A stretch of 64,000 nt of DNA from Pseudomonadota bacterium (GTDB lineage: Bacteria; Pseudomonadota; Gammaproteobacteria; Burkholderiales; Gallionellaceae): the NCBI GenBank assembly GCA_021821945.1, contig JAJZTF010000004.1, positions 1-64,000 of the forward strand, read 5' to 3'. Positions 45,316 to 57,444 of this stretch are shown here, in pieces. Below the pieces are notes generated by a model. The model saw nothing but the letters and a program-made list of their open reading frames with translations, did not search any database and had not been told where the DNA came from. Numbering within the stretch: position 1 is the stretch's first letter; every line of letters starts with the position of its first letter. The translations under genes and the position numbers were made by a program.

Positions 45316-46248
45316 TTGGGAAAATTCATCGGATTATTGCTGATCGGTGAGCTGACCTCGCTGGCCTATATCGGCGGCGTCTCGGAAGCCGCCGTGCTGA
45401 CCGGCATCTCCTATCTGCTTTTTCCCGAGCTTGCCGCCCTGTCCTACGATGTGTTCACGCGCCCCGCGGGAACCTGGGCAAGATCGCCGTTCCTTCTGAT
45501 CATCACGCCCCTGATCACCGCGATCATGGGCCTTCTGATCGAACAGCACCTGGGTTACAGCGCATATTCCGTGCTGCTTTCCATTGCGTTTGCACTGCTG
45601 GTCATAAAGCTTCTGAATTCTCCGATTGCGCCAGCGATACCGGCAGGCCTCCTTCCCATCTTCCTCGAGGAAAAGAGCTGGTGGTATCCGGCGGCGATTC
45701 TCCTGGGGACCTCCCTGCTCGTTCTCGGACTGCAGGTATACAAGAGGGTATTCTCAGACATCATACCGCAGGTTAAAAGCCTCCCCGGCCTGATAGACGA
45801 CATCGTCGAGCAGCCGCCAAGGTTCTATTCATGGCTGCCCCACTTTGTCCTCTTCCTGCTGGCCGATGCCGCCCTTGCAAGGCTCAGCGGGCTGCGCTTC
45901 ATCATGTTCCCGCCACTTGTGGTGATCGCATTCGAGATGTACGCGCATCCGGACGTCTGCCCTTGGGCGAACAAGCCTGTCCTTCTGATCACAGCATGCA
46001 CGCTTGCTGCAGCAGCAGGCGTTTCATTCGAGATGCTGATGGGAAACAACCCATTCTCGGTGATGCTCTCGATGGCCGTCGCGATGGGGCTCATCAGGCT
46101 TTTCAGGCTGCATGCGCCGCCTGCGGTTGCAGTCGGGCTTTTGCCCTTCGTGATCGAACGCCCTAACTTCACCTTTCCTCTGGCTGTCGCGGCAGGCACG
46201 CTGCTTTTGGTCGGCATGTTTTCGATGCAGAGATCATTTCGCCGTTAG
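45316..46248 (+). CDS. Tandem-repeat membrane protein of HPP-like type
   Basis: 310 residues with many helices. Two halves repeat: residues 36-145 (FPELAALSYDVFTRPAGTWA, NSPIAPAIPAGLLPIFLEEK) and 198-308 (FPPLVVIAFEMYAHPDVCPW, RLHAPPAVAVGLLPFVIERP). Each ends with a Pro-Ala-Gly-Leu-Leu-Pro motif that looks like a divergent HPP signature. The only available start is TTG 45316, five bases after the HPP gene. Its last 15 bases overlap the end of nasT on the other strand. It is likely a partner or paralogue of the HPP protein. Confidence 0.72.
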   Translation: MGKFIGLLLIGELTSLAYIGGVSEAAVLTGISYLLFPELAALSYDVFTRPAGTWARSPFLLIITPLITAIMGLLIEQHLGYSAYSVLLSIAFALLVIKLLNSPIAPAIPAGLLPIFLEEKSWWYPAAILLGTSLLVLGLQVYKRVFSDIIPQVKSLPGLIDDIVEQPPRFYSWLPHFVLFLLADAALARLSGLRFIMFPPLVVIAFEMYAHPDVCPWANKPVLLITACTLAAAAGVSFEMLMGNNPFSVMLSMAVAMGLIRLFRLHAPPAVAVGLLPFVIERPNFTFPLAVAAGTLLLVGMFSMQRSFRR

Positions 46249-46812
46249 CTCTTCCGACAGTATGATGGCCTCGGCGATCTCGGCGATGCGCTTTCCCCTG
46301 TTCATCGCCATGCTGCGCATCCTCCTGTAGGCTTCCGCCTCGTCAAGCCCCATGCGCTGGATCAGTATCCCCTTGGCCCTGTCCACCAGCTTGCGCTCCT
46401 CAAGCTGATCCTTCACTTCTCTCAGCTCGTCGCGCAATCGCTTGTGCTCGGCAAACCGCGCCGCCGCGACCTGGATGATCCCGCTGAGGTCCTCGCCCTC
46501 CACGTCGTGCGACACATAGGCGCTGACCCCAGCACGCATTGCAGCCTGTATGCTCCGGCTGTCCTTCTGGGCACGCAGCACGACCACCGGCTTTTCCAGT
46601 GTCCTGGACATCAGGCTGATCTGTTCCAGCGTATCGCGCCCGGGCGCGTTCGCATCGACGATGATCACGTCGGCCGCGGCCGCCTGTATCGACCTCTCAT
46701 CGACCTCATCCCAGCTCAGCGCGCCGACCACGACGTATTCCGCAAGTTCGAGGCTCGCCTTGAGCCATAGCGCCCTGTCCCTTGCATCGTCGATGATCAG
46801 TATGCGTTTCAC
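46234..46812 (-). CDS. nasT: NasT nitrate-responsive antiterminator (ANTAR domain)
   Basis: 192 residues: a receiver-like domain (LIIDDARDRALWL, DVIIVDANAPGRD, phosphoacceptor region near Asp52) and a C-terminal ANTAR RNA-binding domain (about 130-190; ERKLVDRAKGILIQRMGLDE, AYRRMRSMAMNRGKRIAEIA). In Azotobacter and Pseudomonas, NasT binds leader RNA with two hexaloop hairpins and prevents termination unless held by NasS. Its likely target is the nirB leader at 51230-51332. Last gene of the narK operon, 34 bases after nasS. Confidence 0.92.
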   Translation of the reverse strand: MKRILIIDDARDRALWLKASLELAEYVVVGALSWDEVDERSIQAAAADVIIVDANAPGRDTLEQISLMSRTLEKPVVVLRAQKDSRSIQAAMRAGVSAYVSHDVEGEDLSGIIQVAAARFAEHKRLRDELREVKDQLEERKLVDRAKGILIQRMGLDEAEAYRRMRSMAMNRGKRIAEIAEAIILSEELTAK

Positions 46813-46846: not shown

Positions 46847-48010
46847 TCATGCCTTGATCGCGAAGCCTGAGGCATATCCAGCCGGATCCCGCCCGTCCCA
46901 AACCTTGCCGTCCATCAGCTTCGAGGTGCGCATGGCATCTCCGGGCAGGGGCATTTTCACCTGGTCCGCAGCCTGTCTGTACAGTTCTATCTGGTTGATT
47001 TCCCTGGCGACCGCCAAATAGTCAGGATCATGCTTCAAAAGCCCCCAGCGCCGAAACTGCGTGAGAAACCACATCCCGTCGGAAAGATAGGGGAAGTTGA
47101 CCTCGCCCTGATCGCAGAACTTTATGCAGTCGGGATCCTTCCATTTGCGCCCCAGGCCGTTTTCATAATCGCCCTTCATGCGCGGTTCTATCATGCCGAC
47201 CTGGCAGTCGATGTAGGCCTCTCCCGCGATGATTTCCGACACCTTGTCGCGGTTTTCCATTTCATCGACATATCTGGATGCTTCGAGCACCGCCATGATC
47301 AGGGCACGCGAGCTGTTGGGATATTTCTTCGCGAACTCTGCGGTGCATCCCAGCACCTTTTCAGGATGATCAGGCCAGATTTCCTGGGAGGTCGCGACAG
47401 TGAATCCGGCATGCTCGCGTATCGCAAGGCTGTTCCAGGGCTCTCCTGCAGAGTAGCCGTCCACCTTCGCCATCCTCATGCTCCTGACCATCTGCGGCGG
47501 CGGCAGCGTGACGATACCGGCATCGTTCAGCGGATCGATGCCGTGGCTTGCAAGCCAGTAATAAAGCCACATCGCATGGGTGCCCGTTGGAAACGTCTGC
47601 GCAAGGACGAGATCACGCCTATCCCTATCCATCAGGGACTTCAGGGCCGCACCGCTGGTTGCGCCCCGTTTTCCGAGTTCTCCGGACAGGGTGATACCCT
47701 GGCCATTCCTGTTCAGCGTCATCAGGACGGACATTGCCCTGGGCGCGCCTCCAATGCCCATGTGCACGCCGTAGATCAGGCCGTAAAGCGCATGCGCCGC
47801 ATGCAGCTCGCCGCCGATGAGCCTGTCGCGGACCCCGGCCCAGGAAACCTCCTTAGACAGGACGATCTTGATGCCATGCTTCTCGTCGAATTTCAGCGCG
47901 CTTGCTATGACCAGCGATGCGCAATCGGTCAGCGGCATGAAGCCCACCCTGATTTCCCTGATCTCTGGCGCATCTGAACCAGCAATCCGGTTGGTCAAGA
48001 CGGTGTTCAT
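46847..48010 (-). CDS. nasS: NasS cytosolic nitrate/nitrite sensor (NrtA-like)
   Basis: 387 residues of the NrtA/CmpA nitrate-binding fold: EIREIRVGFMPLTDCASLVI, HMGIGGAPRAMSVLMTLNRN, VDGYSAGEPWNSLAIREHAG, EVNFPYLSDGMWFLTQFRRW. There is no signal peptide or lipobox, unlike the ABC-transporter NrtA, and nasT follows, both marking it as NasS. Known NasS sequesters NasT and releases it on binding nitrate or nitrite. Its start overlaps the PP2C-kinase stop by four bases. Confidence 0.9.
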   Translation of the reverse strand: MNTVLTNRIAGSDAPEIREIRVGFMPLTDCASLVIASALKFDEKHGIKIVLSKEVSWAGVRDRLIGGELHAAHALYGLIYGVHMGIGGAPRAMSVLMTLNRNGQGITLSGELGKRGATSGAALKSLMDRDRRDLVLAQTFPTGTHAMWLYYWLASHGIDPLNDAGIVTLPPPQMVRSMRMAKVDGYSAGEPWNSLAIREHAGFTVATSQEIWPDHPEKVLGCTAEFAKKYPNSSRALIMAVLEASRYVDEMENRDKVSEIIAGEAYIDCQVGMIEPRMKGDYENGLGRKWKDPDCIKFCDQGEVNFPYLSDGMWFLTQFRRWGLLKHDPDYLAVAREINQIELYRQAADQVKMPLPGDAMRTSKLMDGKVWDGRDPAGYASGFAIKA

Positions 48011-49704
48011 TTTTTTGCAAGGTACAGAAGAAGGAGCAGGATATTCGCAAAGATCGAAGCCATCGCGAGCATCTTAAGACCCAGCACAGGATCGCGCCTG
48101 AAAAGCGGGGTGTTGCGCGCAACGAAGAGCGGCCGCTGGGCTCCGCGCTCCAGCGCGAGCAGAAACTCCTCCGCCGTCTCGAAGCGTTCCTGGGGATCGC
48201 GGGCGACAGCCTTGAGCATCACGGACTCGAGCCACTCCGGGATGTCCGGACGGTAGCGCACAGGAGGCACAGGGTCGCCGAAGCGGGGATTCTGGAATGG
48301 CTCTATCTCGCCATATGGATATTTGCGCGTCAGAAGATGATAGACCGTGACGCCTGCCGCATACAGGTCGCTCGACTCGCTCGCAGCGACACCCCTGTAG
48401 AGCTCCGGCGCCATGAAGGAGGGCGTGCCCGGGTTGCCTGTTTCACCCGATATCTCCTGTTCATCGAAGCCGCGCGACGCGGCAACGCCCAGATCGAGCA
48501 GGCGCAGCTGGCCGTCCGCGCCGAGGTGCAGGTTGTCTGGCTTGATGTCGCGATGAACGATGCCCATTCTGTGCAGCACCTTGAGCGCCTTCAGCATGCG
48601 GCCGGCAATGTCTGCCGCCTCGATGGGCGTGAATCTCCTGCCCAGCTCCAGATGGCGGGCGAGCGTAGCGCCTTCATGCCAGCTCATCAGGTAATACAGG
48701 AAAGTGCGCTGCGGCCGGTTCAGCGCCTGCGGAAAATACGCACTGACAACGCGCCTGGCAAGCCATTCCTCGCGCGCGATGGCTGCGATGTCCGAAGCAT
48801 CGGCATGCAGCGTCTTCAGCACGCAGCGCTGATCCGTTGCCGGATCGCGCACCAGATAGAGTATCGCGTTTCGCGAGTCATGGATCACATCCTGGACTTC
48901 CAGGCCGTCCACGCATTGGCCGGGCTTGAGCCTAGGAGGAAGCGGCAGCTCTGAAACGCTTGCCAAATTGTCTCGCAGGCTCTCTGCGGGCAGGCTCAGG
49001 ATGCGCACGATCAGCGCCGTGCAGTTGTCGGTGCTGCCGGCATGGATTGCGGCAAGCGTGATCCGCGAGGCGACGTCTTCAAGGACGTCAGGGCATCCCA
49101 ACAGCCTGATCAGCTCCTTTTCGTCTAGCGCATTCCAGACGCCATCGGTAGCAAGCAGGAAAATATCGCCGGCTTCAAGCTCCCCGTCGATGAAATCGAT
49201 CGAGATATTCGCATCCAGTCCCACCGCCCGCGAAAGCACATTGTCGAATTCCGGATGCGCCCATACATGGTCTTCGGTCAGAAGCGACAGTTCCTTGCCG
49301 CGCAGGCGATATATGCGGGTGTCGCCGACATGCGCGATGGTATAGCGCCTGCCCCTGAATGCCACGGCAGACAGCGTGGTCGCCATGCCCGCGGTTTCAC
49401 GCGCTTTCCTGCTGTGCGCATGGAGCCAGCGGTTAACCGCAACCATGACCTTCTCGAGAGACTGCGCAATGCTCAATGTGTCCGGCGTCGAATAGTAGTC
49501 GGACAAAACGCTGCGCACAGCGTATTCGGCGGCTTCCCGCCCGTGTGCATGCCCGCCCAGACCGTCGGCGATCGCGACCAGCGCACCCTTGTTCCCGAGC
49601 GCCTCCCCGTCCGGTGTGACGCCTGCGCAGTAGTCCTCGTTTGCGGGCCTCAATCCAGCCAGCGAGGCATGGCCGAGACCGATCCGCAGGGCGGCCTTTT
49701 CCAT
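48007..49704 (-). CDS. Fused PP2C phosphatase and Ser/Thr protein kinase, membrane-anchored
   Basis: 565 residues. Residues 1-240 are a PP2C-type phosphatase (VAIADGLGGHAHGREAAEYA, MATTLSAV, IAHVGDTRIYRL, LLATDGVWNA, STDNCTALIV). Residues 265-520 are a Hanks-type kinase: catalytic loop HRDIKPDNLHL, activation-site GTPSFMAPELYRG, but DLG instead of DFG and no clear glycine-rich loop. A C-terminal helix (MLAMASIFANILLLLLYLAK) anchors it. Such fusions sit by narK in several proteobacteria; the target, perhaps the transporter, is unknown. It overlaps narK by one base. Confidence 0.88.
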   Translation of the reverse strand: MEKAALRIGLGHASLAGLRPANEDYCAGVTPDGEALGNKGALVAIADGLGGHAHGREAAEYAVRSVLSDYYSTPDTLSIAQSLEKVMVAVNRWLHAHSRKARETAGMATTLSAVAFRGRRYTIAHVGDTRIYRLRGKELSLLTEDHVWAHPEFDNVLSRAVGLDANISIDFIDGELEAGDIFLLATDGVWNALDEKELIRLLGCPDVLEDVASRITLAAIHAGSTDNCTALIVRILSLPAESLRDNLASVSELPLPPRLKPGQCVDGLEVQDVIHDSRNAILYLVRDPATDQRCVLKTLHADASDIAAIAREEWLARRVVSAYFPQALNRPQRTFLYYLMSWHEGATLARHLELGRRFTPIEAADIAGRMLKALKVLHRMGIVHRDIKPDNLHLGADGQLRLLDLGVAASRGFDEQEISGETGNPGTPSFMAPELYRGVAASESSDLYAAGVTVYHLLTRKYPYGEIEPFQNPRFGDPVPPVRYRPDIPEWLESVMLKAVARDPQERFETAEEFLLALERGAQRPLFVARNTPLFRRDPVLGLKMLAMASIFANILLLLLYLAKK

Positions 49705-50915
49705 CAGATCTTGGCCGCGGTCAGATGCGACGCGCCCCAGGTCGTGCGCCAGCGCGTCTTGACTCCGGTCAGCCCCATCAGGGCGAAGACCGTCAATGCG
49801 GCGAAAATCATGAAGCCTGCCTGATAGCTGCCGGTCATCTGCCTGGAATAGCCGAGGCTGGATGCCAGATAGAATCCACCCATGCCGCCTGCCATGCCGA
49901 CGAGTCCGGTCATCACGCCGATCTCCTTCCTGAAGCGCTGCGGCACGAGCTGAAACACCGCGCCGTTGCCCATCCCCAGGCTCAGCATCGCAACCACGAA
50001 CATCGCGAGCGCCGTCCAGGCGCTGTCTGGCGCGAAGCTCACGCTGGCGAGCGAAATGCCCGCTATGCAATACATCGCCGTGAGCGACTTGACGCCGCCG
50101 ATGCGGTCCGCGATGTTGCCGCCCATGGGGCGCACCATGGATCCGGCGAACACGCAGGCAGCCGTGAAGAAGCCGGCCGTCTTCGCATCCAGCCCGTATT
50201 GCGTGTTGAAATAGATCGTCAGAGAGGACGCGAGTCCCACGAAGCCGCCGAAGGTGACCGAGTAGAAGAACATGAACCACCATGCATCGCGGTCCTTAAG
50301 AACGGCGATGAATTCCCGCAGCGACTTTGGCGGCGGACCGTCAGGCGCATCCTTGGCCATTTTCATGTAGAAGATGAAAACGGCGCTGAGCGGTATCAGT
50401 GCAAGGCCAAAGACGTTTGTCCAGCCGTATGCAATCGCCAGGCTTGGCGCGACCAGCGCGGCCAGGGCAGTCCCGGAATTTCCCGCCCCCGCGATGCCCA
50501 TCGCTGTTCCCTGATGCTCTGCCGGATACCACCTGGATGCGAGCGGAAGGGCGGCCGCAAAGGAAGCGCCGGCAACGCCTAGAAACGCGCCCAGCACCAG
50601 CGCCTGTCCGTAAGTATGTATGCCCGCGCGCCATGCAAGGAAGAGCGCTGCGATGATGATGATCTGTCCGATCGCCCCGGCGCGCTTGGGCCTGATCTGG
50701 TCGACGAGCAGACCCATGACGACGCGCAGCAGGGCGCCGGACAATATCGGTGTGGCGACCATCATGCCTTTCTGTATCGGTGTCAGATGCAGGGTGGCGG
50801 CAATCTGCACGCCGAGCGGCCCCAGCAGCACCCAGACCATGAAGGCGAGGTCGAAATACAGAAAGGCCGCAAGCAATGTGGGCGCATGACCCGCCTTCAA
50901 AAAGTTTTTGTACAT
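49704..50915 (-). CDS. narK: NarK/NasA-type MFS nitrate/nitrite transporter
   Basis: 403 residues with twelve predicted helices and the nitrate signatures of the NNP family: GAGNSGTALAALVAPSLA and GMGNGAVFQLVPQRF, each with the GN-rich loops that face the substrate. FDLAFMVWVLLGPLG with GVQIAATLHLTPIQKG is the usual first helix. ATG 50915 with GGGAGAG upstream is chosen; a longer frame to 51104 crosses the promoter. First gene of the narK-kinase-nasS-nasT operon, transcribed from a sigma-54-like promoter. Confidence 0.92.
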   Translation of the reverse strand: MYKNFLKAGHAPTLLAAFLYFDLAFMVWVLLGPLGVQIAATLHLTPIQKGMMVATPILSGALLRVVMGLLVDQIRPKRAGAIGQIIIIAALFLAWRAGIHTYGQALVLGAFLGVAGASFAAALPLASRWYPAEHQGTAMGIAGAGNSGTALAALVAPSLAIAYGWTNVFGLALIPLSAVFIFYMKMAKDAPDGPPPKSLREFIAVLKDRDAWWFMFFYSVTFGGFVGLASSLTIYFNTQYGLDAKTAGFFTAACVFAGSMVRPMGGNIADRIGGVKSLTAMYCIAGISLASVSFAPDSAWTALAMFVVAMLSLGMGNGAVFQLVPQRFRKEIGVMTGLVGMAGGMGGFYLASSLGYSRQMTGSYQAGFMIFAALTVFALMGLTGVKTRWRTTWGASHLTAAKI

Positions 50916-50950
50916 GTCGTCTCTCCCAGGGGTTTCGGTTTTTGAAGCCA

Positions 50951-50966
50951 AGCAATTCATGTGCCA
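50951..50966 (-). promoter_or_regulatory. Sigma-54 promoter of the narK operon
   Basis: On the minus strand the sequence is TGGCACATGAATTGCT, matching the -24/-12 consensus TGGCAC-N5-TTGC exactly. The expected start point is near 50940, 25 bases ahead of the narK ATG, so there is little room for an attenuator. It would need RpoN and an enhancer-binding activator such as NtrC. Confidence 0.8.
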
Positions 50967-51013
50967 GCGGGCGATTTCTCCGCAGTCTTCTGCAAAATGG
51001 CCGGAAGGAGGCG

Positions 51014-51098
51014 TGCGATTTGGTGCATGAATCGCGCCTGATGCGACAAGATGGTGCGCTTCATCCTGCGTCAGGAGCACCATGCCCGGAATAGGTGC
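51014..51098. promoter_or_regulatory. Cluster of NtrC-like half sites
   Basis: Three copies of the half site GGTGC lie here (51022-51026, 51053-51057, 51094-51098). The second and third are preceded, five bases apart, by imperfect left halves GCGAC and GCCCG of the NtrC consensus GCACC-N5-GGTGC; the first sits in TGCGATTTGGTGCA. An inverted GCACC is at 51077. The block lies between the two sigma-54 promoters, a suitable enhancer position. Weak by sequence alone. Confidence 0.45.
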
Positions 51099-51200
51099 GC
51101 GCATTTGCAGGGTTCAACCGATGATCAACGAATTGATCCACATGCGTTTTCCTTCTCCATCCGGGATGTACGCGGAAATCCCATCAGTTCAAGGACGCAG

Positions 51201-51216
51201 TGGCATGAAGATTGCT
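51201..51216 (+). promoter_or_regulatory. Sigma-54 promoter of nirB-nirD-nasA
   Basis: TGGCATGAAGATTGCT fits the -24/-12 consensus with the invariant GG and GC correctly spaced. Transcription should begin near 51226, just before the first leader hairpin. The pair of divergent sigma-54 promoters fits nitrogen-regulated nitrate assimilation. Confidence 0.78.
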
Positions 51217-51229
51217 GCATGATGAACGT

Positions 51230-51275
51230 GCTCCGGCCAAAGGCGGTCGGGGCGTTAACACCGACAAAGGCGTCG
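51230..51275 (+). promoter_or_regulatory. NasT-type ANTAR leader: two hexaloop hairpins
   Basis: P1: GCTCCGGCC (51230-51238) pairs with GGTCGGGGC (51245-51253), nine pairs including two G-U, around the loop AAAGGC. P2: CGAC (51262-51265) pairs with GTCG (51272-51275) around the same loop AAAGGC (51266-51271). ANTAR proteins recognise two consecutive stem-loops with hexanucleotide loops having A at position 1 and G at 4, which both loops satisfy. P2 uses bases of the terminator's 5' arm, so NasT binding would block termination. nasT is 5 kb away in the divergent operon. Confidence 0.8.
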
Positions 51276-51332
51276 ACCCGATTTCCTGGTGGTACTCAAC
51301 AGTGCCTGCAGAAATCGGGCGGCGCCTTTTTT
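51266..51332 (+). terminator. Leader terminator before nirB (attenuator)
   Basis: The arm AGGCGTCGACCCGATTTC (51268-51285) pairs with GAAATCGGGCGGCGCCT (51311-51327), about 16-17 pairs with one bulge, followed by a run of six Ts (51327-51332). The 25-base top can fold into a small inner hairpin (GGTAC/GTGCC, loop TCAACA). It lies 15 bases ahead of the nirB ATG, so it would end transcription by default. It is mutually exclusive with P2. Confidence 0.82.
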
Positions 51333-51346
51333 ACTGAGAGGATGAG

Positions 51347-53800
51347 ATGATGGATACTAAGCCCAGGCTGGTGGTGATAGGCAACGGCATGGCGGGCATG
51401 CGCACGATAGAGGAACTGCTCAAGATGTCGCCTGACGATTTCGACATCACGGTGTTCGGCAGCGAGCCGCGTCCCAATTACAACCGCATCCTGCTCTCTC
51501 CCGTTCTGTCCGGCGAGATGCGGTTCGAGGAGACGATACTCAACGATCTCAACTGGTACGAGGAAAACCGCATCGCGCTGCACGTGGGCAGGACCGTCTC
51601 CAAGATAGACCGGTTCCGCTGCCATGTGGAGACTGAAGAAGGACTCCGTGCGCCATATGATCGCCTTCTGATCGCAACGGGTTCTAACCCCATCATGCTG
51701 CCCATACCCGGAATGGATCTTCCTGGGGTCGTGGCCTATCGCAGCATGGACGACGTCGAGAAAATGCTCGCTGCGGCTGAAAGCGGCAAACGCGCGGTGG
51801 TGATAGGCGGCGGCCTCTTGGGGCTCGAGGCCGCGAACGGCCTCTCGATGCGGGGCATGAAGGTGTCAGTCGTGCATCTGTGCGACTGGCCGATGGAGCG
51901 CCAGCTGGACAGTGTGGGCGGCGGCCTGCTCAAGGATGCGCTGGAAAGGCGCGGGCTCAGGTTTTATCTGTCGCGCCAGACCGAGGCGATACTGGGCGAA
52001 GAAAGGGTCACGGGCGTGCGCTTCAAGGACGGCGAGGAAATCGAGGCAGACCTTTTGGTCATGGCCGCAGGCATACGCCCCAGCATTGCGCTTGCCAAAT
52101 CGGCCGGCATCCATTGCGAGCGCGGCATCGTGGTCAGCGACACGATGCAGACCTATGACCCCAAGATCTATTCGGTTGGCGAATGCGTGCAGCATCGCGG
52201 CCAGACTTATGGCCTCGTGGCACCCCTGTTCGAACAGGCCAGGGTTGCAGCCAACCACATCGCGCGCTATGGCAGGATGCGCTATGAAGGCTCTGCCGTT
52301 TCCACAAAACTCAAGGTGACCGGCATCGATCTCTTCTCCGCCGGCAATTTCAATGCCGGTGAGGAAGACGAGGAGCTGCTGCTGCAGGATGCCTCGCGCG
52401 GCGTTTACAAGAAACTGGTGCTGCGCGACAACAAATTGCGCGGCGCCGTGATGTATGGCGATACCGTGGACGGCCCCTGGTATTTCCAGCTGATGCGCGA
52501 CGGAACCGACTTGTCCGAGTTGCGCGAGCACCTTCTTTTCGGCCAGGTGCATCTGGGCGATGCGGGGCGCGGCGGCGCATCGAATGTCGCGAACATGGCC
52601 GACTCCGCGGAAATCTGCGGCTGCAACGGCGTGTGCAAGGGGGCCATCGTGGATGCCATCATAGGCAAGAAGCTCTTCACGCTGGAGGAAGTGCGCGCGC
52701 ATACCAAGGCATCCGCCTCGTGCGGTTCCTGCACCGGCCTAGTCGAAGCCTTGCTTGCCAACACGCTGGGCGGGGACTATTCTGCAAGGCCCAGCAAGAA
52801 GCCGATCTGTTCCTGCACGGAACACGCGCACCAGGATGTGCAGCAGGCAATTTCCAGACTGGGGATCAAGAACATGCCGGATCTGATGCGCGCGCTCGAT
52901 TGGAAGACGGCTGACGGCTGCCATGTCTGCCGGCCTGCGCTCAACTATTATCTGATGACCGCATGGCCCGGAATCTATCAGGACGACAGCCGCTCCCGTT
53001 TCATCAACGAGAGGGTGCATGCGAACATCCAGAAGGACGGCACCTATTCCGTGATACCGCGGATCTGGGGCGGCGTGACCTCGCCAAAGGAACTGCGCAC
53101 GATCGCCGAGATCGCGGAAAAATACCGGGTGTCGACGGTTCACATCACCGGGGGTCAGCGCATCGGTCTTTATGGCATCAGCAAGGAGAACCTTCCGGGG
53201 ATGTGGGGCGAGCTTGTGCAAGGCGGCTTCGTCTCGGGTCACGCCTATGGCAAGGCCTTGCGCACCGTGAAGACCTGCGTGGGATCGGAATGGTGCCGTT
53301 TCGGCACCCAGGATTCGACAGGCCTCGGCATCCGGGTGGAGAAGATGACCTGGGGTTCATGGACTCCTCACAAGTTTAAGATCGCGGTCTCGGGCTGTCC
53401 GCGCAACTGCGCCGAGGCGACCATCAAGGATTTCGGCGTGGTGTGCGTGGATTCCGGTTACGAGATCCATGTGGGCGGCAATGGCGGCATCAAGGTGCGC
53501 GTCACGGACTTTCTCTGCAAGGTGGAAAGCGAGGAGGCAGTTCTTGAGCATTGCGGGGCATTCATGCAACTCTACCGCGAGGAGGCGAATTACATGGAGC
53601 GCACCGCGCCCTGGATAGAGCGCGTGGGGCTTGCCTATGTCAGGCAGCATGTCGTGGAAAGCGAAAAGGAGAGGGCAGAACTATATGAACGTTTTCTGGA
53701 ATCGCAGCGCCATTCGCAGGACGATCCCTGGAAGGCTCGTGCGGAAGGGAAGGACGCGCACGAATATGCGGCGCTGGCTACCCTGGGGGAGGTAAAATGA
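51347..53800 (+). CDS. nirB: NAD(P)H-dependent assimilatory nitrite reductase, large subunit
   Basis: 817 residues: FAD site GNGMAG (12-17), NAD(P) site VVIGGGLLGLEAA (about 145-157), two BFD-type [2Fe-2S] segments (ICGCNGVCKGAIVD with CGSC, near 420-465; then CSCTEHAHQD and DGCHVCRPALNY), and the siroheme/[4Fe-4S] domain with ligands Cys644, Cys650, Cys684 and Cys688 (TCVGSEWCRFG, VSGCPRNCAEA). It reduces nitrite to ammonia by six electrons in the cytoplasm. The ribosome site is GAGAGGATGAG. It overlaps nirD by four bases. Confidence 0.96.
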   Translation: MMDTKPRLVVIGNGMAGMRTIEELLKMSPDDFDITVFGSEPRPNYNRILLSPVLSGEMRFEETILNDLNWYEENRIALHVGRTVSKIDRFRCHVETEEGLRAPYDRLLIATGSNPIMLPIPGMDLPGVVAYRSMDDVEKMLAAAESGKRAVVIGGGLLGLEAANGLSMRGMKVSVVHLCDWPMERQLDSVGGGLLKDALERRGLRFYLSRQTEAILGEERVTGVRFKDGEEIEADLLVMAAGIRPSIALAKSAGIHCERGIVVSDTMQTYDPKIYSVGECVQHRGQTYGLVAPLFEQARVAANHIARYGRMRYEGSAVSTKLKVTGIDLFSAGNFNAGEEDEELLLQDASRGVYKKLVLRDNKLRGAVMYGDTVDGPWYFQLMRDGTDLSELREHLLFGQVHLGDAGRGGASNVANMADSAEICGCNGVCKGAIVDAIIGKKLFTLEEVRAHTKASASCGSCTGLVEALLANTLGGDYSARPSKKPICSCTEHAHQDVQQAISRLGIKNMPDLMRALDWKTADGCHVCRPALNYYLMTAWPGIYQDDSRSRFINERVHANIQKDGTYSVIPRIWGGVTSPKELRTIAEIAEKYRVSTVHITGGQRIGLYGISKENLPGMWGELVQGGFVSGHAYGKALRTVKTCVGSEWCRFGTQDSTGLGIRVEKMTWGSWTPHKFKIAVSGCPRNCAEATIKDFGVVCVDSGYEIHVGGNGGIKVRVTDFLCKVESEEAVLEHCGAFMQLYREEANYMERTAPWIERVGLAYVRQHVVESEKERAELYERFLESQRHSQDDPWKARAEGKDAHEYAALATLGEVK

Positions 53801-54120
53801 ACTGGATACAGGTGGGACTTCTTTCAGACATTCCCAGACAGGGCTCAAGGGTGATCAAAACTTCAGGAGGCGAAATCGCGCTCTTTCGCAGCGTGGACGA
53901 CGAAGTATTCGCGCTGGATGACCGCTGCCCGCACAAGGGAGGCCCCCTGTCCCAGGGCATCGTGCACGGCCATCGTGTGACCTGCCCCTTGCACAGCTGG
54001 GTGATTGCGCTGGAAAGCGGTGAAGCGGTGGCGCCCGATGCTGGCTGCGCGCACCGCCATGAAGTGCGCCAGGCGCACGGGTTATTGTTCCTGAATTTTG
54101 ACGGCGAGCTGGAAAACTGA
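53797..54120 (+). CDS. nirD: Nitrite reductase small subunit (Rieske-like)
   Basis: 107 residues, NirD. It keeps a full Rieske set: Cys44, His46 (RCPHKGGPL) and Cys63, His66 (TCPLHSW). Many NirD proteins have lost these ligands, so this one probably holds a [2Fe-2S] cluster. It partners NirB. ATGA overlap with nirB and two bases before nasA. Confidence 0.95.
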   Translation: MNWIQVGLLSDIPRQGSRVIKTSGGEIALFRSVDDEVFALDDRCPHKGGPLSQGIVHGHRVTCPLHSWVIALESGEAVAPDAGCAHRHEVRQAHGLLFLNFDGELEN

Positions 54121-54122
54121 AC

Positions 54123-56759
54123 ATGCATTGCAAAGCCGCAGCGATCCGCAGCACCTGCCCCTATTGCGGGGTGGGATGCGGCGTGGAAATCGACGGGGCA
54201 GGGAGACTTGCCGGGGACAGACTTCATCCGGCGAATTTCGGCAGGCTTTGTTCCAAGGGGGCGGCGCTTGCCGACACGCTGGAACACGATGGCAAGCTCC
54301 TCCATCCCGAGGTCTATGGTAAGCGCGCCACCTGGGATCAGGCGCTCAATCTGGTGGCGGAAAGATTCAGCAGCGTGATTGCCGAGCACGGGCCGGATGC
54401 GGTTGCCTTCTATGTCTCGGGACAGCTGCTGACCGAGGATTATTATGTCGCAAACAAGCTGATGAAGGGTTTCATCGGCAGCGCGAACATCGACACCAAT
54501 TCAAGGCTCTGCATGGCTTCTGCAGTTGCGGCGATGAAGCGTGCATTCGGGGCCGATGCGGTGCCTGTCTGCTATGAGGACATCGAGATTGCGGACCTGA
54601 TCGTATTGACAGGTTCCAACTATGCATGGGCGCACCCCGTTCTTTACCAGCGCCTTGCTGCCGCAAAAAAGAAACGGCCTGCCATGCGCGTGGTGGTGAT
54701 AGACCCCCGCCGCACCGCGACCTGCGACATCGCCGATCTTCATCTGGCGATCAGGCCGGGATGTGACGCCCATCTGTTCAACGGCCTTCTGCACCATCTG
54801 CGTCGCGAGGACCTGCTGGACCTTGCCTACATAGAAGCGCATGTCGAAGGATATGCAGCTGCCTTTGCCGCTGCCCGGGATGCGGGTTCCGTTCCCAAGG
54901 TGGCGAAGGCATGCGGCATCAGCGAGTCCGCTGTTGCAGAATTTTTCAGTCTGTTTGCGCGCACGGAAAAAGTCGTGACGGTGTTTTCCCAGGGCATCAA
55001 CCAGTCCTCGAGCGGAGTCGACAAGGGCAATGCGATCATCAACGTGCATCTTGCCACCGGCAGGATGGGGCAGCCCGGCATGGGGCCGTTTTCCGTGACG
55101 GGCCAGCCGAATGCGATGGGTGGGCGCGAAGTAGGCGGACTTGCCAACCAGCTCGCATCCCACATGGATTTCTCTGACCCCGCCGGCATGGATCGCGTTG
55201 CGCGTTTCTGGAATTCCGAAAACATCGCAAGGCAGCCGGGCTTGAAGGCCGTGGACATGTTCGATGCGATTGCAGATAAGAAAATCAGGGCTGTCTGGAT
55301 CATGGGCACCAATCCCGTTGTGAGCATGCCGGATGCCGACAGGGTCAGGGAAGCGCTGCTTGGTTGCGAGCTGGTGGTCGTATCCGATTGCGTGCGTCAT
55401 ACCGACACCACCGAATGCGCGGACATATTGCTGCCCGCCTGCGGCTGGGGCGAGAAGGACGGCACGGTGACCAATTCCGAGCGGCGCATCTCGCGCCAAC
55501 GATCCTTCGTTCCCGCTTCAGGGGAAGCACGCCCCGACTGGTGGATCATCACCGAGGTCGCGAGACGCATGGGTTTTTCAGCAGCCTTTCCCTATGCGAG
55601 GCCGGCCGATATATTTCGCGAGCACGCACGCCTTTCCGGTTTTGAAAATGCCGGCGAGCGCGCATTCGACATCAGCGCCTTGAGCGGATTGAGCGACGAA
55701 CAATACGACGAGCTGCAACCCGTGCAGTGGCCTGTGAATGCAAAAGCGCCGAATGGCACGGCGAGACTTTTCGAAGATGGAAGATTTTATACGCCGGGCG
55801 GACGCGCGCGCATGATCGCGGTCCATCCCAGGCTGCCCGCGATGCCTGTCGATGAGAATTTTCCGCTGGTGTTGAACACCGGCCGCATGCGGGACCAGTG
55901 GCACACGATGACGCGCACCGGCCTCGTGCCGCGCCTGAATTCGCATTCCATTGAACCTTATGTAGAGGTGCATGCATCGGATGCGCATGGGCTTGCCGAA
56001 GGAAGTCTTGCGCGCCTGATAAGCCGCAATGGCAGCATGCTTGCGCGTGTGAAGATCAGCGATGAGCAGCGGCCGGGTTCGGTGTTCGTGCCCATGCACT
56101 GGAGCGATGCCTATGCCAGATCGGCAAGGGTGGATGCGCTGGTCGCACCCGTCACCGATCCGATCTCGGGCCAGCCCGAATCCAAGCATGCGCCGGTGCG
56201 CATCGAACCCTATCGCCCGCTGTGGCAGGGGTTCGTGCTGAGCCGCAGCCGTCTTGCATTTCCGGATGCCAGCTATTGCGCCTGCACCCAAGGTTCAGGC
56301 TACTGGCGGCACGAGATTGCCGGCGAAAGTCAGCCGGCTGACTGGCGAACCTGGGTAAAGATGAATCTGGGTCGGCCGTCGGATGCAGACTGGATCGAAT
56401 ACCTGGATGCCGCAATGGGGCGATATCGCGCTGCCTGTCTGATAGAGGGAAGGCTGGAAGCGGTATTCTTCATTTCAGCGGATCATCGCCTGCCCGAACG
56501 CGAATGGCTTGCCAGCCTGTTCAAAAAATCGCAACTCGAACCTGCCGATCTGTCCGGCCTTCTGGCAGCAAGAGCGCCCAAGGATGCCGATGCCGGGCGC
56601 ATCGTGTGCGCCTGCTTCAGCGTGGGAGAGAAAACCATACTGGATGCGATACAGTCGCAGGGATTGAAGAGCGTCGAGGAAGTTGGCCAATACCTGAAAG
56701 CCGGCACCAATTGCGGCTCATGCGTTCCCGAAATCCGCAAGCTCCTTATGCGCCATTGA
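54123..56759 (+). CDS. nasA: Assimilatory nitrate reductase catalytic subunit
   Basis: 878 residues of the Mo-bisMGD family: [4Fe-4S] cysteines 12, 15, 19 and 43 (TCPYCGVGCG, RLCSKG), molybdenum ligand Cys130 (NSRLCMASAV), FSQGINQSSSGVDKGNAIIN, LNTGRMRDQWHTMTRTG near the MoCo-binding C-terminal part, and a final BFD-like [2Fe-2S] domain (IVCACFSVGEKTI, GTNCGSCVPEIRKLL). That last domain is what the cytoplasmic NasA of Klebsiella has, and likely takes electrons from a flavoprotein. No signal peptide, as expected. A decayed copy of its last 95 bases lies at 57528-57623. Confidence 0.95.
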   Translation: MHCKAAAIRSTCPYCGVGCGVEIDGAGRLAGDRLHPANFGRLCSKGAALADTLEHDGKLLHPEVYGKRATWDQALNLVAERFSSVIAEHGPDAVAFYVSGQLLTEDYYVANKLMKGFIGSANIDTNSRLCMASAVAAMKRAFGADAVPVCYEDIEIADLIVLTGSNYAWAHPVLYQRLAAAKKKRPAMRVVVIDPRRTATCDIADLHLAIRPGCDAHLFNGLLHHLRREDLLDLAYIEAHVEGYAAAFAAARDAGSVPKVAKACGISESAVAEFFSLFARTEKVVTVFSQGINQSSSGVDKGNAIINVHLATGRMGQPGMGPFSVTGQPNAMGGREVGGLANQLASHMDFSDPAGMDRVARFWNSENIARQPGLKAVDMFDAIADKKIRAVWIMGTNPVVSMPDADRVREALLGCELVVVSDCVRHTDTTECADILLPACGWGEKDGTVTNSERRISRQRSFVPASGEARPDWWIITEVARRMGFSAAFPYARPADIFREHARLSGFENAGERAFDISALSGLSDEQYDELQPVQWPVNAKAPNGTARLFEDGRFYTPGGRARMIAVHPRLPAMPVDENFPLVLNTGRMRDQWHTMTRTGLVPRLNSHSIEPYVEVHASDAHGLAEGSLARLISRNGSMLARVKISDEQRPGSVFVPMHWSDAYARSARVDALVAPVTDPISGQPESKHAPVRIEPYRPLWQGFVLSRSRLAFPDASYCACTQGSGYWRHEIAGESQPADWRTWVKMNLGRPSDADWIEYLDAAMGRYRAACLIEGRLEAVFFISADHRLPEREWLASLFKKSQLEPADLSGLLAARAPKDADAGRIVCACFSVGEKTILDAIQSQGLKSVEEVGQYLKAGTNCGSCVPEIRKLLMRH

Positions 56760-56800: not shown

Positions 56801-57103
56801 TCATGTCGTGTGGATGCGCTCTGCATGCAATTTCAACCCCAGCGCAGAAATCACTTTGAGGATCGTTGCAAAACTTGGATTGCCTTCACCAGACAAAGCT
56901 TTGTATAGACTTTCGCGTCCCAGCCCCGTTTGCCTGGCAAGCTGTGTCATCCCTTTTGCGCGAGCGATCGTGCCGAGTGCCTTGGCAATAAAGGCAGCGT
57001 CATCCCCCGCCTCTTCCATGCAGGCTTCCAGGTATTCCGCCATATCCTCGTCTGTCTTTAGATGTTCGGCGCTATCCCATTTTTTCAGTTTGATGGTCTT
57101 CAT
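56801..57103 (-). CDS. higA: HigA-type antitoxin (XRE family)
   Basis: 100 residues: addiction-module antidote of the XRE/HigA1 type with helix-turn-helix GMTQLARQTGLGRESLYKAL and SGEGNPSFATILKVISALGL; DDAAFIAKALGTIARAKG precedes it. ATG 57103 has GAAAGA eight bases upstream; ATG 57118, touching the toxin's TAA, is an alternative giving 105 residues. It neutralises the RelE-like toxin encoded just upstream and probably represses the shared promoter. Confidence 0.88.
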   Translation of the reverse strand: MKTIKLKKWDSAEHLKTDEDMAEYLEACMEEAGDDAAFIAKALGTIARAKGMTQLARQTGLGRESLYKALSGEGNPSFATILKVISALGLKLHAERIHTT

Positions 57104-57117
57104 ATTTATATCTTTCA

Positions 57118-57408
57118 TTAAACATTTCGTGCAATTTCGAGCGCAGTTTTGATGTCATTTTTCTGGGTGGATTTGTCGCCGCCTGCCAGTAGGATAACAA
57201 TTTCCTTTCCCCGTTTTACAAAATAAACCCGATAACCCGGCCCGCAATGAATCCTCATTTCAGATACGCCTTCGCCTACTGGTTCGCAATCGCCGAAGTT
57301 GCCATCTTCTGCACGATCAATTCGCACCTGGATGCGTCGGGCAGCTTTTGCATCTTTCAGCCCTGCGAACCAGTTATCAAATACTTCCGTTGTTTGAATT
57401 GAATTCAT
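57118..57408 (-). CDS. higB: RelE/HigB-like toxin
   Basis: 96 residues of the RelE/ParE barrel family, DUF891/HigB-type: FDNWFAGLKDAKAARRIQVR, GVSEMRIHCGPGYRVYFVKR, EIVILLAGGDKSTQKNDI. The family cleaves mRNA at ribosomes. ATG 57408 sits only eight bases after the -10 box of its promoter, so the message may have no leader. Toxin first, antitoxin second, as in HigBA. Confidence 0.88.
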   Translation of the reverse strand: MNSIQTTEVFDNWFAGLKDAKAARRIQVRIDRAEDGNFGDCEPVGEGVSEMRIHCGPGYRVYFVKRGKEIVILLAGGDKSTQKNDIKTALEIARNV

Positions 57409-57415
57409 GCGCAAG

Positions 57416-57444
57416 ATTGTATTATTTGGGATACATGCCGTCAA
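57416..57444 (-). promoter_or_regulatory. Strong sigma-70 promoter of higBA
   Basis: On the minus strand -35 TTGACG (57439-57444), 17 bp, and -10 TACAAT (57416-57421), each five of six consensus bases. The expected start point is 57408-57410, coinciding with the toxin ATG. Confidence 0.75.

Follow-up and report, generated by a model that had tools for sequence, protein, structure and literature searches.

The question raised by this locus is how the DNA at 51201-51346 controls the nitrite and nitrate reductase genes that lie behind it. In the window, by which we mean the whole stretch of 64,000 nucleotides analysed, nirB is followed by nirD and, after 2 bases, by the nitrate reductase gene (Table 1). 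The minus strand carries, in this order, narK, an ORF with PP2C phosphatase and protein kinase domains, nasS and nasT. The earlier note had placed nasS and nasT in the divergent operon, and the NMT1_2 match of the one and the response regulator and ANTAR matches of the other are found there. For narK, whose ATG lies at 50915, the MFS_1 search was run on 49704-50918, one codon longer than the gene. The PP2C-kinase ORF overlaps narK as an ORF, and its true start is probably further in; it sits between narK and nasS, and a similar gene is found before nirB leaders in L122 and L171. Beyond the reductase genes, two short adjacent ORFs on the minus strand (56801-57444) resemble a HigB/HigA-type toxin-antitoxin pair.

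Table 1. Features of the nitrate assimilation locus, in window coordinates
Feature	Position	Strand	Basis
nasT, ANTAR antiterminator (response regulator + ANTAR)	46234..46812	-	Pfam
nasS, nitrate/nitrite sensor of NrtA type	46847..48010	-	Pfam NMT1_2
ORF with PP2C phosphatase and protein kinase domains	48007..50283	-	Pfam
narK, MFS transporter, probably for nitrate/nitrite	49704..50915	-	Pfam MFS_1
Second exact sigma-54 site, 35 bases before the narK ATG	50951..50966	-	exact pattern match
Sigma-54 (-24/-12) promoter of nirB-nirD-nasA	51201..51216	+	TGGCATGAAGATTGCT, exact pattern match
Rfam RF03032 (narK RNA) match	51202..51276	+	43.3 bits, gathering cut-off 43.2
Predicted leader RNA, about 106 nt if terminated	51227..51332	+	sigma-54 geometry and folds
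P1 hairpin, 9 bp (arms 51230-51238/51245-51253), hexaloop AAAGGC 51239-51244	51230..51253	+	sequence, fold, covariation
P2 hairpin (antiterminator half), 4 bp (arms 51262-51265/51272-51275), hexaloop AAAGGC 51266-51271	51262..51275	+	sequence, covariation, prefix folds
Intrinsic terminator, six T at 51327-51332	51266..51332	+	folding; 5' arm starts in the P2 loop
nirB, nitrite reductase large subunit	51347..53800	+	Pfam
nirD, Rieske small subunit; overlaps nirB by 4 bases	53797..54120	+	Pfam
Assimilatory nitrate reductase (nasA), molybdopterin domains and C-terminal BFD [2Fe-2S]	54123..56759	+	Pfam

All elements that the earlier note had described in front of nirB were recovered: the -24/-12 sigma-54 match is exact to the base, the two stem-loops with the shared hexaloop AAAGGC lie where they had been placed, the run of six T is read directly, 14 bases before the nirB ATG, and the terminator reuses the loop and the 3' arm of P2, so that the second stem-loop indeed shares bases with the terminator's 5' arm. 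Both loops have A at position 1 and G at position 4, as is characteristic of ANTAR hexaloops, and P1 and P2 are separated by a linker of 8 nt (51254-51261). The start of the leader, about 51227, was inferred from its distance of 12 nt past the -12 GC of the sigma-54 site. Attenuation by a leader peptide was considered and rejected: between 51227 and 51346 the sole ATG, at 51342, comes after the T run, and GTGs are found at 51228, 51289 and 51302. A generic promoter and terminator scan returned 10 terminator-like sites vs 9.5 by chance, and near the leader it found nothing but a different short stem at 51303-51321.

Folding of 51226-51346 gave P1 together with the terminator at -58.7 kcal/mol (z -5.1; 0/200 shuffles as good), with a terminator stem that spans 51266, the first base of the P2 loop, to 51329, within the T run. 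Because the terminator pairing begins at the first P2-loop base, P2 and the terminator are mutually exclusive. Folding with and without P2 constrained, which had been suggested as a check, bears this out: P2 is absent from the minimum-energy fold of the full leader, and when P1 and P2 are forced, the terminator stem keeps its inner part but ends short of the T run. P2 alone (4 bp) is worth -4.6 kcal/mol; it is part of the best fold when the RNA stops at 51276 or at 51320, while 3' ends at 51296-51304 give a different structure, without P1 or P2. With P1 and P2 forced, the leader is 13.4 kcal/mol less stable than in the terminated fold, and P2 is short; NasT would therefore have to act before the terminator arm has been transcribed.

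Relatives that lack the two hexaloops would have spoken against the earlier note, but the loops are kept. Of 30 leaders (the window and 29 loci), 23 were aligned from P1 to P2, with neither promoter nor terminator included; L074, L085, L090, L091, L098, L100 and L101, which have long or extra-hairpin linkers, were left out. Changes on both sides were observed in 7/8 pairs of P1 and in 3/5 pairs of P2, the fifth, outermost pair of P2 being missing in 14/21 aligned sequences, and the covariation score was 0.58, where shuffles gave 0.18 and slid versions no more than 0.16. In this alignment, each loop is invariant at A1, A2 and G4 only; the identity of the two window loops is a local feature.

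The covariance search for the ANTAR motif that the earlier note had proposed was carried out with R1, a promoter-free P1+P2 model built from the 23-sequence alignment. In 100 genomes of the family, R1 found 49 places at E<=1e-3, all of which were examined and four of which (L102, L105, L113, L119) are rows of the model. The leader in the window is the best of these places with 51.4 bits, being itself one of the 23 model rows. A1 and G4 were present in P2 at 49/49 places and in P1, as placed by R1, at 48/49, counts that are partly circular because R1 asks for these loops. A terminator that reuses P2, an element outside the R1 model, was found at 49/49 family places, by a lenient rule that 234/980 shuffles pass, and therefore the base-pairing counts carry more weight. 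The first downstream match at the family places was nirB (18), a NasS-like gene (27), narK (3) or nasA (1), where the NasS-like gene is probably nrtA. In 300 genomes of the order, R1 found 72 places at E<=1e-3; 43 of them were examined, after leaving out the 23 model rows, four loci that had already been folded and two that belong to the family set, and a terminator reusing P2 was found in 43/43.

The pairing that would permit switching can be followed at a single base. The 3'-side base of the fourth (outer) pair of P2 can pair with a base of P2 or with a base of the terminator, and the three letters involved were C-G-C at 17 family places, G-C-G at 29, A-T-G at 2 and A-T-A at 1. Thus, the outer P2 pair is C-G, G-C or A-T, with the terminator partner changing in step, and both folds are kept at 49/49 places. 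For the remaining three P2 pairs, both folds are kept in 49/49, 48/49 and 49/49 in the family, and in the order set the four P2 pairs gave 37, 40, 40 and 43 of 43, all of these counts referring to sequences and not to independent events.

NasT is the only ANTAR protein found in the genome of the window (one PF03861 match); it has a receiver domain, and a nitrate-sensing NIT domain, as in NasR, was not found in it. Across the 100 family genomes (leader at E<=1e-3, NasT at E<=1e-30), 32 have both leader and NasT, 65 have neither, one has only the leader (G341) and two have only NasT (G352, G361); without the four model genomes the numbers for both, leader only, NasT only and neither are 28/1/2/65. 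Relaxing the NasT threshold to E<=1e-15 adds one more family genome (G320) with a NasT-like protein. In the 300 order genomes (NasT at E<=1e-15), both were found in 63, only the leader in 4, only NasT in 51 and neither in 182, or 41/3/51/182 without the 23 model genomes. Of the 114 order genomes with a NasT-like protein, 51 gave no leader match at E<=1e-3; these may contain ANTAR proteins of another sort, or the stricter filters may have passed over their leaders. Among the seven named loci nearest to the window, assigned to Proteobacteria, Gallionella, Gallionellales, Hydrogenophilales, Gallionellaceae (two) and Thiobacillus, L002, whose NasT is the nearest (86%), shares the divergent layout, in L003, L004, L006 and L007 the leader comes after nasT and on its strand, and the remaining two, L005 and L008, are short contigs in which an R1 match is absent.

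The promoter accompanies the leader in most of the relatives. A sigma-54 site within 60 nt was found at 37/49 family places (33/45 without the model rows) vs 0/48 control stretches, and three more have one within 120 nt (40/49); in the order set, 41/43 places have a site within 130 nt vs 0/42 controls. Of the 12 family places without a site within 60 nt, L129, L130 and L174 do have one, with P1 misplaced by R1, eight lie before nirB and have no site, and L179 is doubtful. The NasT of L129, L130 and L174 is more distant (37-40% identity), and these leaders have a further hairpin between P1 and P2. The eight NasT-type attenuators before nirB that have no sigma-54 site (L108, L164, L165, L167, L168, L169, L170, L180) apparently lie between genes and would be a second, internal checkpoint within an operon, as in the eut locus.

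In the window itself, the pattern TGGCAYN5TTGCW occurs exactly twice (0.21 expected; two reached in 3/100 shuffles), at 51201-51216 on the plus strand and at 50951-50966 on the minus strand. The two form a divergent sigma-54 pair around a shared stretch of 234 bp. The minus-strand site is absent from the earlier note, which listed one site; an exact site before narK is also present in L131 and L126, and not in L175. This site agrees with a 2025 survey in which sigma-54 promoters were predicted for genes of a group of ANTAR proteins including nasT (PMC12316311). No attenuator was found behind it, either with Rfam (E<=1 in 50400-51500) or with R1 (E<=0.1 in the window), and 35 bases before narK leave too little room for an attenuator of the NasT-leader kind. 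As for the activator, the genome has one sigma-54 gene and, among 54 partial or full NtrC-like matches, one NtrC above the cut-off; five further long NtrC-like proteins below the cut-off could also be the activator. A convincing NtrC enhancer site was not found in the window, where the best match to the consensus (51042-51058, 11/14) was equalled in 1/100 single-base shuffles. In several relatives, TGCACCA half-sites are found again some 130 nt upstream of P1, and many of the best NtrC-like matches in relatives are no better than single-base shuffles.

The leader overlaps an RNA that is already in Rfam. RF03032, or narK RNA, is the only Rfam match above a cut-off in the window, with model positions 1-72 of 72 aligned. 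Model positions 1-15, GGCaCAgcucUUGCU, are the -24/-12 promoter, the paired hairpin of the model is P1 (with the model loop AACGGC), and CGACAAAGACGUCG, which is P2, is drawn unpaired in the structure line. Hence promoter DNA is part of the Rfam model and the P2 pairing is not, and narK RNA appears to be a NasT leader with its promoter attached, which may already be published. The Rfam table line describes RF03032 as a cis-regulatory RNA only and names no protein or ligand; NasT is now supplied as its likely protein partner. The genome of the window has one RF03032 place and one R1 place, and in the 300 order genomes RF03032 gave 34 matches at E<=0.001, three of which reach the cut-off. In the part of the literature that our search covered, no paper on narK RNA or RF03032 was found.

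Some relatives outside the family carry more than two hexaloops. Where at least 24 nt separate the predicted start from P1, a further hexaloop hairpin was found in 14/22 order leaders and in 40/4400 shuffles, although in two of the 14 (L246, L247) the extra hairpin may be P1 itself, with P1 misplaced by R1. Three hexaloops are present at 13/43 order places, namely 12 of the 14 and L244, in which the extra hairpin lies between P1 and P2; by a narrower rule, none was found among the 49 family places. Leaders with three hexaloops include L219, L228, L229, L231, L235, L236, L240, L182, L186, L194, L202 and L204, and further ones are L075, L081, L091, L096, L100 and L101. An ANTAR RNA with three hairpins does in itself have a precedent, since the RNA bound by the ANTAR protein PdtaR is described with three predicted hairpins, in an account that does not state hexaloops (PMC8131098). 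It is thus tempting, albeit at somewhat less than even chances, to regard narK RNA as a cassette of NasT antiterminator and sigma-54 promoter that exists in a two-hairpin form, as in the window, and in a three-hairpin form (P0-P1-P2) outside the family; in such a cassette, the first hexaloop hairpin would usually start a few bases from the predicted transcription start. If this is true, the extra NasT site of the three-hairpin form could sharpen or grade the nitrate response, and this variant could serve to probe the number of loops that an ANTAR dimer recognizes.

The window has close counterparts among characterized systems. In Paracoccus denitrificans, NasS-NasT is reported to dissociate with nitrate or nitrite, and NasT to bind the nasA leader (PMC3795266), of which two hairpins have been studied (PMC3795266, PMC5424462); that leader lies between nasTS and nasA, and the order of nasT and leader is common in relatives of the window but is not that of the window. 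A further counterpart is NalA, compared here by its description, the leader of nirBD that a review with references to Pseudomonas presents as started from sigma-54 under NtrC and opened by NasT (PMC12830290). Like NalA, the window combines a sigma-54 promoter, NasS and NasT, a leader in front of nirBD and a terminator that NasT would open; unlike NalA, it has a molybdenum nitrate reductase gene after nirD, and its nasST genes are divergent and lie behind narK and the kinase gene. According to the account of the dual-hexaloop mechanism worked out for EutV, the eut locus has terminators before four genes and the linkers of its leaders are 5-12 nt long, a range that includes the 8 nt of the window (PMC3369931). 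The targets of EutV, NasR and AmiR share with the window the two A1/G4 hexaloop hairpins and the alternation of P2 with the terminator (PMC3369931), but, unlike in NasR, the signal in the window presumably arrives via NasS and not through a NIT domain. RF03032 resembles the window in that the match is above the cut-off, and differs in having P1 alone paired and promoter DNA included. In Bradyrhizobium, most genes whose expression falls in a nasT mutant are reported to have no clear NasT hairpin, and narK and bjgb, with predicted NasT hairpins, are nevertheless up in the mutant (PMC6759348), a rise that we count against the NasT-antitermination reading.

Other explanations of the leader have to be weighed against attenuation. 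The RNA could sense a small molecule by itself, with P1 and P2 as parts of an aptamer, and the Rfam entry, which gives a cis-regulatory RNA and neither protein nor ligand, would be compatible with such a riboswitch; however, two simple hairpins within about 45 nt that carry the A1/G4 signature of ANTAR loops, and the close co-occurrence of leader and NasT in the family, make it very improbable. We regard as equally improbable that the main product of termination is a free small RNA, which might for instance titrate NasT, with the control of nirB being secondary. Titration of ANTAR proteins by RNAs acting in trans is reported from other bacteria (PMC8131098), and the Pseudomonas leader carries a name of its own, NalA, but the T run lies 14 bases before nirB, the first match downstream of the 49 family places is nirB, a NasS-like gene, narK or nasA, and the exclusivity of P2 and terminator is kept. 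That the leader has decayed or become constitutive and has lost its response is hardly to be expected at all: although the match is merely 0.1 bit above the Rfam cut-off, the P1+P2 score is the best in 100 family genomes, albeit that of a model row, and the genome retains NasS, NasT, sigma-54 and NtrC. Judged from sequence, then, the leader is very probably a transcription attenuator that is opened by NasT and stands behind a sigma-54 promoter. The prediction that it permits the synthesis of nirB-nasA only after the release of NasT is supported by the conservation of the hexaloops, the terminator and the co-occurrence with NasT.

From the DNA elements, the exclusive pairings, their conservation and covariation, and the co-occurrence with NasT, we infer transcription starts, NtrC as activator, NasT binding, a response to nitrate and the following order of events. 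Under nitrogen limitation, sigma-54 RNA polymerase, most likely activated by NtrC, would start at about 51227, and P1 would fold at once. When nitrate is absent, NasS would hold NasT, the P2 bases would pair with the downstream arm and polymerase would stop at the six T. When nitrate or nitrite is present, NasS would let NasT go, and a NasT dimer would grip both hexaloops by A1 and G4, fix P2 and keep the 5' arm from the terminator, so that nirB-nirD-nasA would then be transcribed. The genes for NarK, the kinase, NasS and NasT are probably read from the divergent sigma-54 promoter, behind which no attenuator was found, and therefore the sensor and the transporter could be made before nitrate arrives.

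In summary, the window adds a member of a known mechanism and no new principle. Its control looks like a double gate, with sigma-54, probably signalling nitrogen limitation, as one input and nitrate as the other. The control logic of nitrate assimilation, sigma-54 (nitrogen shortage) AND NasT (nitrate), can thus be read from the DNA alone.
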